In this document: one piece after another, positions 8,193 through 19,537 of the stretch
Layout of the letters: every line of letters begins with the position of its first letter
Numbering within the stretch: the first letter of the stretch is position 1
Source of the DNA: Planctomycetota bacterium
GTDB taxonomy: Bacteria; Planctomycetota; Phycisphaerae; UBA1845
Assembly: GCA_030616775.1 (NCBI GenBank)
Contig: JAUWWQ010000005.1
Coordinates: forward strand, 1 to 64,000
Length of the DNA stretch: 64,000 nucleotides
Direction of reading: 5' to 3'
Position numbers and translations under genes: made by a program
The notes under the pieces: generated by a model
The model's database searches: none
What the model was told of the DNA's origin: nothing
What the model saw: only the letters and a program-made list of their open reading frames with translations

Positions 8193-8705
8193 ATGAGCAA
8201 GGCCGTCAAAGCGATGATTGCTGCGGAGCTGAAAGAACGCTACGCAGATACTGATAGTGCGTGCGTTGTTGATCTGAGGGGTCTGAACGTCCAAGAGCAG
8301 GAACAACTCCGCAGAAGTCTCCGGGAAAAGTCGGCCCGGTTGCAGGTGGTCAAGAACAGCTTGGCGCGTCGTGCGTTTCAGGGCGGGCCGCTGGAGCCGC
8401 TCGGTGACACTTTGGAGGGACCTTGCGCGCTGGTCACCTCCTCGGAATCGCTGATCGAGACCGCCAAGATCCTGGTCAAGGCCGCCGACGAGTTCAATCA
8501 GCTCGAGCTCAAGCAGGCCATCCTCGACGGGGATCCAGGCCTTCTGACGGTCACCGATATTTCGAAGATGAAGAGCCGCACGGAGTTGGTCGGTGAGCTG
8601 GTAATGCTCGCTGCCTCGCCCGGTCGGGCGTTGGCGGCTTGCCTGATCTCACCGCAATCGAGGATTGCCGGCTGCCTGAAGGCGATGGTCGATAAGGCCG
8701 CCTGA
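8193..8705 (+). CDS. rplJ: 50S ribosomal protein L10
   Basis: A 170-residue stalk-base protein that binds 23S rRNA together with L11 and anchors L7/L12 dimers through its C-terminal helix. The pattern VVDLRGLNVQEQEQLRRSLR followed by LQVVKNSLARRAF is diagnostic. The 75-base gap before it contains a short GT run (GTGTGTGTGTG). No L10 leader structure could be identified by eye. Confidence 0.96.
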   Translation: MSKAVKAMIAAELKERYADTDSACVVDLRGLNVQEQEQLRRSLREKSARLQVVKNSLARRAFQGGPLEPLGDTLEGPCALVTSSESLIETAKILVKAADEFNQLELKQAILDGDPGLLTVTDISKMKSRTELVGELVMLAASPGRALAACLISPQSRIAGCLKAMVDKAA

Positions 8706-8850
8706 CGGAGAACTCCGAACCGGTTCCTGAAGTATTATGTAGTGATGACGCTGCACACCGACTGGTCCGCCATGGCGGATGAAATGACCCGCAACGGGCG
8801 GGTCGCCTATCGGTGTGGCGATAAACATGGCGGAAGGAGATGGAAACACA

Positions 8851-9285
8851 ATGGCGGAAGCCAGTACCGCTGAGTTCAGCCCAGAGATTACCGATGAGTT
8901 CAGCCCCGAGATTACTGAGCTTGCTGACAAGCTCGTGAACCTGACGGTCAAAGATGCTCAAACCCTGGTCGATTGCCTCAAGAGCGTACACGGTATTGAG
9001 CCTGCCGGCGGGGGAATCGTGATGGCCGCCGGTGCGGGCGAGGCCGGCGCCGCTGCGGCTGAGGTCGAGGAGCAGACATCCTTCGACGTGATTTTGGCCG
9101 GTTTCGGCGACAAGAAGATCCAGGTGATCAAGGTGGTCCGGTCGCTCACCAGTCTGGGGCTGAAAGAGGCCAAGGACCTCGTGGAGTCCTGCCCGAAATC
9201 CGTGAAGGAAGGGATTTCCAAAGAAGAGGCCGAGAAGATCAAGAGTGAGATCGAAGAAGTGGGTGGTGCCGTTACCATCAAGTGA
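8851..9285 (+). CDS. rplL: 50S ribosomal protein L7/L12 with duplicated N-terminal segment
   Basis: A 144-residue stalk protein that recruits translational GTPases. The N-terminal dimer/L10-binding domain, an Ala/Gly/Glu hinge ([15 protein letters not shown]) and the C-terminal domain ([31 protein letters not shown]) are all visible. It is about 20 residues longer than usual. Part of the excess is an in-frame tandem 24-base duplication (8872-8895 and 8896-8919) giving EFSPEIT twice. ATG 8851 is chosen because AAGGAGA lies upstream; in-frame starts exist further upstream. Confidence 0.96.
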
Positions 9286-9393: not shown

Positions 9394-9509
9394 GTACCGT
9401 CCCCTTACATTATGAAGGTTGCGACTTCCGGTGTTGGTTGGGTGTGTGACCCGGGTGTGTGCCGCATGCGCCTACAGCGCCGGACCGCAGAGTTGAGGGC
9501 CAGAGTCCG

Positions 9510-13286
<3,777 letters not shown>

Positions 13287-13372
13287 CGGGTAGCCCGGCG
13301 GAAGTGCCGATATGGGCTGATGTCAGGGATGACAATTATGGCGAAAGTCCCAAGCAAGAAGGAGATCACATC

Positions 13373-13870
13373 GTGTTCGATAACATCGAGTTTGAGACGA
13401 TGGCGAAGCCGGACCCCGGGGAGCTGTCGGCTTTTTACCAACGGCAGCAACATGAGACCACGCAGTCTCCGGGCAAGCTCCAGCGGATGATGGACAGTAC
13501 GCTCTGCTTCGTGACAGCGCGTCGCAACGGGGAGTTGATCGGCATTGCCCGCGGTGTGACAGACGGCCTGTGGGGACGGCTTGCGGAGTGCAAGTTGGAT
13601 CCCCTCTACCAAGGGCCAGCCTGTGTCACCAGGACGGACGGACGGATCGAACATGATTCGCAAGGCATTGCCGCAGAGATGGCCAGACTGGTCATCGAAG
13701 CACTCCGTGAGTGTGGCGTGGAACGGATCGATGCCCTGGCGTACGGCACGGAAGTGGACTTTTGCGAAGAGCTGGGGTTTCGCAAGATGCGGGGGGTGGT
13801 TCCGATGGAACTTCCCATCGAAGCCCCGGTCCTTGCGCAACAAGCGGTGTCTGTGAGTGAAGGAACGTAA
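13373..13870 (+). CDS. GNAT-family N-acetyltransferase-like protein inserted between rpoB and rpoC
   Basis: A 165-residue protein whose pattern fits a GNAT acyl-CoA transferase. The beta-strand block FVTARRNGELIGIARGVTDG is followed by CKLDPLYQGPACV, a helix MARLVIEALRECGVERI, and EVDFCEELGFRKMRGVVPMEL, the usual end of the fold. The acetyl-CoA P-loop (R/Q-x-x-G-x-G/A) is not clear: after DPLYQG comes a divergent stretch with DSQGIAAEMA. Activity therefore needs proof. The GTG start at 13373 has AAGGAG 8 bases upstream. It sits 86 bases after rpoB and 76 before rpoC and must be co-transcribed with both. Confidence 0.75.
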   Translation: MFDNIEFETMAKPDPGELSAFYQRQQHETTQSPGKLQRMMDSTLCFVTARRNGELIGIARGVTDGLWGRLAECKLDPLYQGPACVTRTDGRIEHDSQGIAAEMARLVIEALRECGVERIDALAYGTEVDFCEELGFRKMRGVVPMELPIEAPVLAQQAVSVSEGT

Positions 13871-13946
13871 CAACGGGCAACCAGTTGGATTATGAGTTGC
13901 ATATTGACCACGAGTCGCCTTTTTGTCCATAAGGGGATTCACCGCG

Positions 13947-16900
13947 ATGCTGGATAATATCTATGATCGCGTAAATGACTACAGTTGCGTGCATATCTCG
14001 TTGGCGTCGCCCAACGATATCCGTAGCTGGTCGTTTGGCGAGGTAAAGAAGCCTGAGACCATCAACTACCGGACCTATCGGCCGGAGAAGGACGGTCTGT
14101 TTTGTGAGCGCATTTTCGGGCCGGAACGCGACTGGGAATGCGCCTGCGGAAAGTTCAAAGGTACGAAGCACAAGGGGATTATCTGTGACCGCTGCGGGGT
14201 GAAAGTCACACACTCGCGGGTGCGACGGAAGCGAATGGGGCATATTAATCTCGCGGCTCCGGTCGTGCACATCTGGTTCTTCAAGTCAATGCCCTCCCGG
14301 CTGGGGGCGTTGCTAGACGTCAAAACGGCGAGTCTTGAGAAGGTCGTCTACTTCCAGGACTACATAGTTGTCGATCCGGGTGATACGCCGCTGAAGGAAA
14401 AGCAGTTGCTCACCGAAGAGGAGTATCGTGCCGCTCGGGAGCAATACGGCCACTCGTGGACGGCCATAATGGGGGCGGAGGCCGTCAAGGAGCTGCTCAC
14501 CCGTCTCGACCTTGCTGTACTGTCATTGCAGCTACGCGACGAGCTGGCCAAGACCGGCAGCAAGCAGCGAGAAAAGGATCTTTCCAAGCGGCTCAAGATC
14601 GTGGAGGCCCTGCGGACCTCACCGAACGAGGCCTCCTGGATGGTGCTGGACGTCATCCCGGTGATCCCGCCGGACCTGCGCCCATTGGTGCTTCTGGACA
14701 GCGGTAACTTCGCGACAAGCGATCTGAATGATTTGTACCGCCGGATCATCAACCGCAACAGTCGACTGAAGAAGCTGGTGGACTTAAACGCCCCGGAAGT
14801 GATCATCCAGAACGAAAAGCGGATGCTTCAGCAGGCCGTTGACGCTCTCTTCGACAACGGGCGTTGTCGCCGTCCGGTCCTTGGCTCGAGCAACCGCCCG
14901 CTTAAGTCCATGACCGATATGATTAAGGGTAAGCAGGGGCGGTTCCGGGAGAACCTGCTTGGCAAACGCGTCGATTACTCTGCCCGCTCGGTGATTGTCG
15001 TCGGCCCCGAGCTTAAGCTGAACCAGTGTGGGCTCCCCAAGAAAATCGCGCTGGAGCTTTATCAGCCCTTCATCATTCGCAAACTCAAGGAACGGGGTTT
15101 GGCAGACACGATCAAGTCTGCGAAGAAGATGCTGGAACGGCAGGATCAGGCCATTTGGGACATCCTCGAAGAGGTCATCTACCAGCATCCGGTGCTGCTC
15201 AACCGGGCCCCGACGCTCCACCGGATGGGTATCCAGGCGTTTGAACCGATCCTAGTCGAGGGGAACGCCATCAAGATTCACCCTCTGGTATGCAGAGGAT
15301 TTAACGCCGACTTCGACGGGGACCAGATGGCGGTGCACCTGCCGCTCTCCATCGAGGCTCAGGTGGAAACGCACGTGCTGATTATGTCGACCAACAACAT
15401 CTTCGGCCCGGCGAACGGTGCCCCGATCATGTCGCCGACTCAGGATATGGTCATGGGCATTTACTACCTGACGACGGAGCATGTCAGTGGCAAGGTCGAG
15501 CCGGACAAGGCCCCGCGCTTCATCAATATGTTCGAGGCCCTGCTGGCCTATGACCATCGGCGCATCGGGATCCACGATCCGATCTGGGTGCGGATCGATC
15601 GTGATCGCGTCGTTTCCGACGCCAATGGTGAGGCTGAGCCTGTACCCGCAAACCGTCGGATTCTGACGACGGTGGGACGTTTGATCTTCAACGATGTTCT
15701 CGCTTCGGAGTTACCTTTCTACAACTGTCCATTGTCACAGAGGGGACTGGTCCGGGTGATCGACGACTGTCACGAAGAGTTGGGCAGGACCGGTACGATC
15801 GATCTCCTTGATGAGGTTAAGGACATCGGATTCAAGTACAGCACACTGGCAGGTCTATCGTTTGGCATCACCGACATGCGGATACCGCGGTCCAAGCAGC
15901 AAATCATCGACGCCGCCCAGAAGCGGGTTGACGCCATTCAAAAAGCGTTCGACGAAGGAACGCTTACACGCCTTGAGCGATACAACCAGGTCATTGACAT
16001 CTGGATCCACGCCCGTGAGCTTGTGACCCAGGCGATGATGGCTGAACTGCGCTCCGATTACCGCGATGCCCAGAACAACTACAAATCGCCCGGCGATTCC
16101 GATGCCAAGCCTTACCTCAACCCGATTTACCTCATGACCCAATCAGGTGCCCGGGGCAGCGTGGATCAGATCCGGCAACTCGCCGGGATGCGGGCCCTGA
16201 TGGCCAAGCCGTCTGGCGAGATTATCGAAACGCCGATCAAGTCCAACTTCCGCGAAGGCCTATCGGTGCTGGAGTATTTCAGCTCTACGCACGGCGCCCG
16301 GAAGGGACTTGCGGATACGGCCCTGAAAACTGCCGACTCGGGGTATTTGACGCGTAAACTGGCCGACGTGGCCCAGAACGTTATCGTGAACCTGCACGAC
16401 TGCGGCACCATCAACGGAATCAAAAAGAGCGCCATCTACAAGGGTGAGGAGGTCGACATCCCACTGGGTGAAGCCATTATTGGCCGCATTGTCCGTGATA
16501 CGATCCGTAACCCCAAGACCGATAAGCTGATCGTCGCTGAGAACGAGGTCATTACTAAAGAGGTCGCAGAGGAGATCGAAGAGCTCGGCCTTGACGAGAT
16601 TCGTGTACGGAGCCCCCTGACCTGTGAGTGCCCGCTGGGCATCTGCGCCCTGTGCTATGGCATGGACATGTCAACCGGTGGGATTGTGGAGGAAGGGATG
16701 GCGGTTGGGATCATAGCGGCTCAATCCATCGGCGAGCCGGGGACACAGTTGACCATGCGTACGTTCCACACGGGCGGGGTGGCCCAGAAGGCGGCCCTGG
16801 AGAAGACCCTTGCAGCGGCTCAAGATGGCGCGGTTCGCTATCACGAGCTGAATCCCGTGGATGTTCCCAACGACGACGGCACGTTCCGAACAGTGGCGCT

Positions 16901-18386
16901 GAAGCGGAACGGCGAGATACTCATTGTAGACGAGAAGGGTCGTGAGCTGTCGCGCGACAAGGTGACCTACGGCGCCGTTCTGTTGGCTAAGGACGGTCAG
17001 GCAGTTTCACACGGCGACACCCTTTGCGAATGGGACCCGCATTTGACCCCTATTTTGGCTGAGGCCGGAGGCTTCGTCCGCTTCCAGGATGTTGCCGACG
17101 GCGAGACCGTCCGCCTCGAGCAGGAGGGTGGCAGCACCAGATATGTGGTCATCGAACACAAGGGTGAGAAGCACCCGCAGATCGTGATTGCGGACACCGT
17201 GGGCGAACAATTCAAGGTTCTGGATTATCACTACTTGCCCGCCAAAGCGCGTATAGAGGTCGAGGAAGGGCAGGAGATCTCTCCGGGGATGCTTCTGGCA
17301 CGCCAGCCTCGGGCCATGGCCGGCACGCAGGACATCACCGGCGGTTTGCCTCGGGTGACCGAGATATTCGAGGCCCGCCGTCCGAAAGAGCCGGCGGTGA
17401 TGGCGGAGATTTCCGGGCAGGTAGAGATCCGTGCGGATAAGCGGCGTGGCAAGATGACCATCATAGTGCACAGCGAGAGCGGGATGGAGAAGGAGCACCA
17501 CGTACCGCACGACAAGCACCTGTTCGTGCACGCGGGCGACCACGTCGAGGCCGGTGATTCCCTGATCGACGGTCCGATGATCCCTCACGACATCCTGCGG
17601 ATCAAGGGCGAGGAGGCGCTGCAGCAGTATCTGCTGGCGGAGGTGCAGGCGGTGTACCGCAGCCAGAGCGTGACGATAAACGACAAGCATCTTGAGACTA
17701 TCGTCGCTCAGATGTTGCGGAAGGTGAAAGTTGAGCACCCCGGCGACTCGAACTTCCTGCCCAGCGAAGTGGTGGACAAGTTCCGGTTCCGTAGCGAGAA
17801 CGATCGGCTGGCCGCAAGCGCGGTTATCAACAATCCCGGGGACACTAAACTGTCTGTCGGTGACGTGGTTCTAAAGTCGGAGTTGACTGAGATCAACGAC
17901 GAGGCCGAATCCCGGGGCGGCGAACCCGCCAAAGGGAAGAGGCCCAAGCCCGCCTCGGCGACCAGCCTGCTGCTGGGAATCACTAAGGCCAGCCTGTCGA
18001 GCGACTCGTTCATTTCCTCCGCGTCATTCCAGGAGACTACGAAGGTGCTGACAGAGGCGGCGCTGGCAGGTAACATCGACGAGTTGCGAGGGCTGAAGGA
18101 AAACGTCATACTGGGACACCTGATCCCGGCGGGTACGGGATTCAAGCGCTACCAGCGCATGCGGGTTAAGCAGATTGGAGAGCCAATCCCGTATCCGGCC
18201 GAGCTACCCACGGAGTTAGCCTTCGGCAGCACGGGGTTTGGCGTCCTTGCGGCCCAGCAGGAGGTTCCGGTCGGCGCCGCCGGCGTTGCGGTTCCGGCGT
18301 CTTTGCCCTTCTCGGACGGAGCCGATCAACAGGGCGCCACATCCGGTGGTCTTGATCAGAATGGGACGGCCTCACCGGAAACGTAG
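13947..18386 (+). CDS. rpoC: DNA-directed RNA polymerase subunit beta-prime
   Basis: A 1479-residue subunit carrying the active-site Mg. It contains the N-terminal zinc finger ([20 protein letters not shown]), the catalytic NADFDGDQM, the bridge-helix/trigger region ([21 protein letters not shown]) and a second Cys cluster ([11 protein letters not shown]). It closes with the family's [21 protein letters not shown] and [18 protein letters not shown], then a low-complexity tail. AAGGGG precedes the ATG. It is normal in size and intact. Confidence 0.99.
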
Positions 18387-18910: not shown

Positions 18911-19537
18911 ATGAAACATGGTGACTTCGACGTAGCCGGGCCGATCACGCGATCGACGGCGCTTGCGGGCTGTCGAGCGTTCGCCCCAGTGGGAGGCGTT
19001 GTGGGCTGCTGCTTGCTGGTAAGCTTAGGAGCCCAGGTACGAATCCCGGTTCCGGGCACCGATGTGTTTATGACGCTGCAACCGCTCGCAGTCCTGCTGA
19101 CGGGATTTGCGCTGAGTCCGCGGCGGGCGTTGGCGGCGACGCTCCTTTATTTAGCATGTGGAACGGTGGGCCTGCCCGTCTTTGCCGGATCAGGGGGGTT
19201 GGCCGGCCCGACCGCAGGCTATCTGATCGGCTTCGTCGTCGCTGCGTGGTTGATCAGCGTTCTCAAGGGTGGACACGGCGCCGGCTTCGGGACACTGCTG
19301 CTGGCGGGAGCGGCTGGCTTACTCGTCATATTCGCGTTAGGGATTGCGTGGCGGATCGGTTTGGTGTATGTTTTGGGTTTGTATGGCGGTGACGTGTGGT
19401 TTGCGGTCTCAACCGGGCTTATACCTTTTTTGGTCAAGACCGTAGTGGAACTGTTGGTCGCAGTGACGTTGGTCGTGTCGGTTCGCAGGCCACGCCCCGG
19501 GCGCCCCTTGCGGCGTCTGTGGTTCCGGGGCATTTAA
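18911..19537 (+). CDS. bioY: BioY-type biotin transporter substrate-binding subunit
   Basis: A 208-residue membrane protein with about six hydrophobic segments. The BioY family pattern is clear: GAQVRIPVPGTDVFMTLQPL near the N-terminus, then GTVGLPVFAGSGGLAGPTAGYLIGF. BioY is the S-component of an ECF-type biotin importer and can work alone or with EcfAA'T, none of which is in the window. The gene is inserted in the same orientation between rpsL and rpsG, with 55- and 63-base gaps, so it should be expressed with ribosomal protein mRNA. No biotin operator was seen. The start lacks a good ribosome-binding site. Confidence 0.9.
   Translation: MKHGDFDVAGPITRSTALAGCRAFAPVGGVVGCCLLVSLGAQVRIPVPGTDVFMTLQPLAVLLTGFALSPRRALAATLLYLACGTVGLPVFAGSGGLAGPTAGYLIGFVVAAWLISVLKGGHGAGFGTLLLAGAAGLLVIFALGIAWRIGLVYVLGLYGGDVWFAVSTGLIPFLVKTVVELLVAVTLVVSVRRPRPGRPLRRLWFRGI

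Follow-up and report, generated by a model that had tools for sequence, protein, structure and literature searches.

The gene located between rpoB and rpoC on this planctomycete contig forms a genuine and so far undescribed part of the rpoBC operon; it is found in most of one order of the Phycisphaerae, and it encodes a protein with a known fold (GNAT) and an unusual cofactor loop. Few gene neighbourhoods in bacteria are as stable as the rpoB-rpoC junction. The same rebuilding of the active site in every member of the family, together with the retention of the gene under selection, points to an undescribed factor which is expressed in step with RNA polymerase.

Position of the gene in the rpoBC operon

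All coordinates refer to the window, i.e. the whole stretch of 64,000 nt that was analysed, on the forward strand of contig JAUWWQ010000005.1. The 13287-13946 region is exactly the gap between the stop codon of rpoB (TGA, 13284-13286) and the rpoC ATG at 13947. The first-pass annotation had placed here a same-strand gene of 165 codons with an AAGGAG site and a GTG start, and this was confirmed (Table 1). The orthologues start at the same point as the window gene or close to it, and the gene is present in a single copy in its own genome, where one match was obtained. The gene is far more than a chance open reading frame, as follows from its score against the Pfam profile PF00583, from the 51-90% identity of the orthologues in most of the order and from the dN/dS values, which were 0.04-0.17 in eight pairs and indicate purifying selection.

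Terminator-like sites were searched for in the rpoB-rpoC gap of the window and none was seen, nor was a plausible separate promoter found upstream of the GNAT-fold gene in this gap. The one weak plus strand promoter match in the region overlaps the start of rpoC. Since both a terminator-like site and a plausible promoter of its own are lacking, the GNAT-fold gene likely shares the rpoBC transcript.

Table 1. Features of the rpoB-rpoC region in the window, and of cassettes in the same gap of relatives.
Feature	Position	Strand	Evidence or remark
rpoB	9510..13286	+	likely start 9510; listed ORF 9459-13286; ORF/translation, start choice, C-terminal matches in relatives
rpoB-GNAT spacer, 86 bp, without terminator-like site	13287..13372	+	
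AAGGAG ribosome-binding site, 8 nt 5' of the GTG	13359..13364	+	sequence
GNAT-fold gene, 165 aa, GTG start, TAA stop	13373..13870	+	Pfam, AlphaFold2 model, structural match
Codon of invariant Cys73, end of strand beta-4 (E-C-K-L-D-P)	13589..13591	+	51/51 members; secondary structure of the model
15-residue insert, residues 82-96, PACVTRTDGRIEHDS	13616..13660	+	alignment with 11 canonical planctomycete GNATs
Codon of Cys131 (invariant), where GNATs usually have the general-acid Tyr	13763..13765	+	DFCEELGF versus DFYxxxGF
GNAT-rpoC spacer, 76 bp	13871..13946	+	
rpoC	13947..18386	+	ORF/translation, relatives
HEPN cassettes	L045:7078-7825; L076:7273-7970 and 8467-9157; L103:1136-1776		PF05168 over cut-off in three of four

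Fold and structural relatives

The window protein matched the Pfam profile PF00583 (Acetyltransf_1) with 25.5 bits against a cut-off of 20.7 (E 1.8e-5). The AlphaFold2 model, which was built from 51 orthologues, had a pLDDT of 88.6 and a pTM of 0.83, and the order of its elements (E-H-H-E-E-E-H-E-H) is the GNAT order. The top structural matches obtained with Foldseek and VIA-align were all GNATs, with Z values up to 17.9. Thus the GNAT assignment, put forward at first from the letters of the DNA, was borne out by the profile score above the cut-off and by the predicted fold.

Rice serotonin N-acetyltransferase, an enzyme of the plastid GNAT2 type (SNAT, also NSI; PDB 7dai, 7dak, 6k5m), was ranked first by both Foldseek and VIA-align. 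Its fold agrees with that of the window protein along residues 1-151 (VIA Z 17.9, rmsd 2.1, 135 residues), and its strand-4 sequence LxDPxYQG and its xDFxxxLGF segment are similar to those of the window protein. The identity is only 22-23%, however, and the active-site residues differ: the rice enzyme has a continuous YQGQGLG loop and a Tyr in DFYKNLGF, whereas in the window protein the loop carries the 15-residue insert and a Cys replaces the Tyr. Moreover, unlike the SNAT-type GNATs, the window protein is neither plastid nor cyanobacterial. The best sequence-profile neighbours were the putative acetyltransferase DR_1678 of Deinococcus radiodurans (PDB 3s6f), found in the profile search, and canonical planctomycete GNATs (L119-L129). 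The N-terminal half of all these aligns well with the window protein, but the cofactor loop of the planctomycete enzymes is uninterrupted, unlike that of the window family.

RimI-type enzymes are a precedent for GNATs acting on the translation machinery. The RimI-type ribosomal-protein acetyltransferase (PDB 5isv) has the GNAT fold too but it was a much weaker structural match (Z 12.8), and RimI and the other GNAT subfamilies, to which the window protein might still belong, stood below SNAT in the structural ranking. The RimI-type enzyme is not an rpo-operon gene, and its target is not transferable to the window protein. Small extra genes also occur within the rplL-rpoB-rpoC-rpsL operons of other bacteria, for instance ybxB and ybxF of Bacillus subtilis, although they belong to other families and occupy other gaps (rplL-rpoB and rpoC-rpsL).

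The acetyl-CoA loop and the active site

The family members were aligned with the 11 canonical planctomycete GNATs. Every member has 15 extra residues (82-96 in the window protein) between YQG (79-81) and xGIA (QGIA, 97-100, in the window protein). The insert is located in the acetyl-CoA pyrophosphate loop and has the near-invariant consensus PxxVTxxDGRIEHDx, in which T86, R91, E93, H94 and D95 are invariant in the 51 members. All 51 members also share Q80, G81, A100 and A104 on its flanks, and 50 of the 51 have G98. The acetyl-CoA loop had been called divergent in the first-pass annotation, and this could be made exact, as the 15-residue insert splits the loop. The insert is also the least confident part of the AlphaFold2 model, with a pLDDT of about 64 for residues 81-90.

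The pyrophosphate-loop motif [RQ]xxG[LIMV][AG] (PMC7339202) lies at the start of helix 3. We looked for this motif in the loop and found it in 0 of the 51 aligned members; the invariant Asp95 is at motif position 1. The first-pass annotation had proposed that a conserved insertion with aligned acetyl-CoA residues would support a functional link to polymerase; the conserved insertion was found, the pyrophosphate-loop motif was not.

A Tyr general acid in helix 4 is common in GNATs, though not universal. In this family it is absent, Cys131 being there in all 51 members, and Cys73 at the end of strand 4 is invariant as well. These changes could mean that the protein is a non-catalytic, GNAT-derived accessory of polymerase with a remodelled cofactor site, which binds RNA polymerase or serves as a CoA or redox sensor through Cys73, Cys131 and His94 and owes its stoichiometry to the shared operon. 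The invariant insert splitting the P-loop and the Tyr to Cys exchange in all members would agree with this, as would the locked position beside the two largest polymerase genes and the presence of two invariant cysteines at sites which, judged from the topology, would be near the acetyl thioester in GNATs. We nevertheless consider such an accessory possible but doubtful, because a dead site would have no need for the near invariance of the loop residues flanking the insert, and the gene was lost repeatedly. One would not expect invariant loop flanks to persist in a decayed pseudoenzyme, so a rebuilt working site appears more likely than a dead one.

Distribution

The gene was found in 87 of the 114 genomes of the order, in one copy each, and in 54 of the 65 high-quality genomes. 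In the family of the window (f1) 41 of 51 genomes have it, or 42 if G009 is counted, where the apparent absence is due to a contig end and the C-terminus of the GNAT gene lies upstream of rpoC. Three genomes of this family (G007, G017, G019) were left out of the present/absent count, as their assemblies do not contain the junction. The gene is present in 3/3, 26/28 and 17/17 genomes of f2, f4 and f8, respectively, and in one genome of f5 (G073). The families f3, f6 and f7 are represented by one genome each, and none of these three gave a match. In G073 (L141 / L104) the gene has its normal location; it was either lost from the other f5 genomes or acquired by G073 through a transfer of the region. 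One locus titled Alphaproteobacteria bacterium IP29b_bin.190 (L055) has the rpoB-GNAT-rpoC arrangement and falls deep in the Phycisphaerae tree, and is probably a mislabelled bin.

Outside the order the gene was not found in the samples of the class and the phylum. Among 298 genomes sampled across the class the matches were within the order only, and in 392 genomes across the phylum all matches other than the window's own were weak, partial ones to canonical GNATs. No homologue was found in the plasmids or in the viral contigs searched, the window protein had no match in the PADLOC defence library, and searches of the open-licence literature yielded nothing relevant on rpoB-rpoC insertions or GNAT loop insertions.

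Wherever a contig carried both neighbours (81 locus records, some of them duplicated between collections, with 60 distinct rpoB sequences), the order was rpoB-GNAT-rpoC on one strand; the gaps to the neighbours had medians of 68 and 82 bp. The survey of rpoB-rpoC spacers thus revealed an insertion conserved in most of one Phycisphaerae order. The first-pass annotation had held that absence from close relatives would make the link to polymerase accidental; such absence applies to a minority, 6 of the 48 decidable genomes of the window family.

The gene might also encode an ordinary small-molecule or antibiotic N-acetyltransferase, strongly expressed from a chance seat in the operon and having no link to polymerase. 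The very diverse substrates of GNATs, the other genes hosted by the gap (HEPN-type pairs in L045, L076 and L103) and the repeated clean losses would all fit. We regard this as rather unlikely, however, in view of the location at rpoB-rpoC in every examined locus, the invariant insert combined with strong purifying selection, and the absence of homologues from the plasmids and viral contigs searched.

Inheritance, selection and loss

The correlation of the GNAT distances was 0.77 with those of RpoB and 0.79 with those of RpoC, little below the value of 0.83 between RpoB and RpoC, thus the inheritance of the gene was mainly vertical, together with rpoB and rpoC. That the gene is a selfish or mobile element which profits from rpoBC transcription, the parasitic expression strategy of the first-pass annotation, is very improbable and largely refuted. 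Pairs of a HEPN-like and a small protein have entered this gap in a few relatives, with two such pairs in one genome, but the GNAT gene is single copy, vertically inherited and of low dN/dS, and it has no copy elsewhere in these genomes and no relatives in the viral contigs searched.

The f1 genomes without the gene occupy three places on the combined RpoB+RpoC tree (G033; G003 with G027; three genomes of g10), while the tree of a shorter RpoC segment unites two of these three groups with weak support. Two to three clean losses within the window's family is therefore the safe statement. Where the gene is missing, the distance between rpoB and rpoC is 54-283 bp, with the exception of L103, where a HEPN pair is present and the distance is 740 bp. 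Judged from these comparisons, the GNAT gene is selected for and is not essential. The clean losses represent natural knock-outs for comparison.

Possible function

Among the lines of evidence only the gene position suggests a functional link to polymerase. RpoC position 444 is Ile in 47/47 gene-bearing sequences and Leu or Val in all six losers of the window family, and the excess of shared columns over random triples was modest (1-3 columns; 77 of 1500 rate-matched triples had at least one and 1 of 1500 had three). The co-variation at position 444 was rejected, as it broke down in two newly added genomes with the gene, G040 (Leu) and G028 (Val), and the f5 losers keep Ile. No reliable change of RpoB or RpoC was found in the genomes without the gene. 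A co-loss with a sirtuin deacetylase was rejected as well, since all six losers keep the sirtuin and the window's own genome is without it. In the latter (G000) no SIR2-type deacetylase was found, while 44 of the 51 genomes of the family have one.

Our best guess, to which we would give somewhat less than even weight, is a non-essential, CoA-binding protein acyltransferase that acts on the co-expressed machinery. An ancestral GNAT-fold gene, structurally nearest to the plant/plastid SNAT type, settled between rpoB and rpoC within one Phycisphaerae order, and from then on it was inherited with them and retained by purifying selection, with few clean losses. Through translation from the rpoBC transcript the amount of the protein would track that of polymerase. 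CoA or acyl-CoA would still be bound, since Q80, G81, G98, I99 and A100 on either side of the insert are nearly invariant, and R91 and H94 of the insert may help the binding or shape the acceptor site. In the last and weakest step the protein might modify a lysine or an N-terminus in the transcription or translation machinery with which it is co-expressed, much as the structurally closest plastid GNATs modify plastid proteins, and would be a non-essential tuning factor. This guess is weakened by the lack of the pyrophosphate-loop motif in all 51 members, where the canonical planctomycete relatives have an unbroken loop, by the replaced general-acid Tyr, and by the genomes that lost the gene, with no reliable RpoB/RpoC change and a retained sirtuin. 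The nearest plastid type of GNAT acetylates proteins both at lysines and at the N-terminus (PMC7339202), and chemical acetylation of the E. coli polymerase subunits by acetyl phosphate is possible (PMC3995681); together with the operon position these make modification of the co-expressed machinery a reasonable guess. If the protein does act on polymerase or ribosomes, it would link CoA metabolism directly to transcription.

We give almost the same weight to a non-catalytic role in association with polymerase. In another, unlikely reading the protein would be a lineage-specific RNA polymerase accessory made from the GNAT fold, in which the rebuilt loop with its GRIEHD insert and the general acid turned into Cys would sense the CoA or redox state, or carry out an acyl chemistry of a new kind, in step with the production of polymerase.

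Other genes in the gap and in the operon

Two-gene cassettes, consisting of a HEPN-like protein and a small acidic one that has no match in Pfam, were observed in the rpoB-rpoC gap of some relatives. In L076 there is one cassette on each side of the GNAT gene, while in L103 the cassette occurs without the GNAT gene. They look like a recurrent toxin-antitoxin-like passenger and show that the rpoB-rpoC gap can take passengers. Further downstream in the window a gene for a BioY biotin transporter (18911-19534; PF02632, 98 bits) lies between rpsL and rpsG, and rpsL-rpsG gaps of several hundred bp in many relatives suggest that BioY or another gene is common there.
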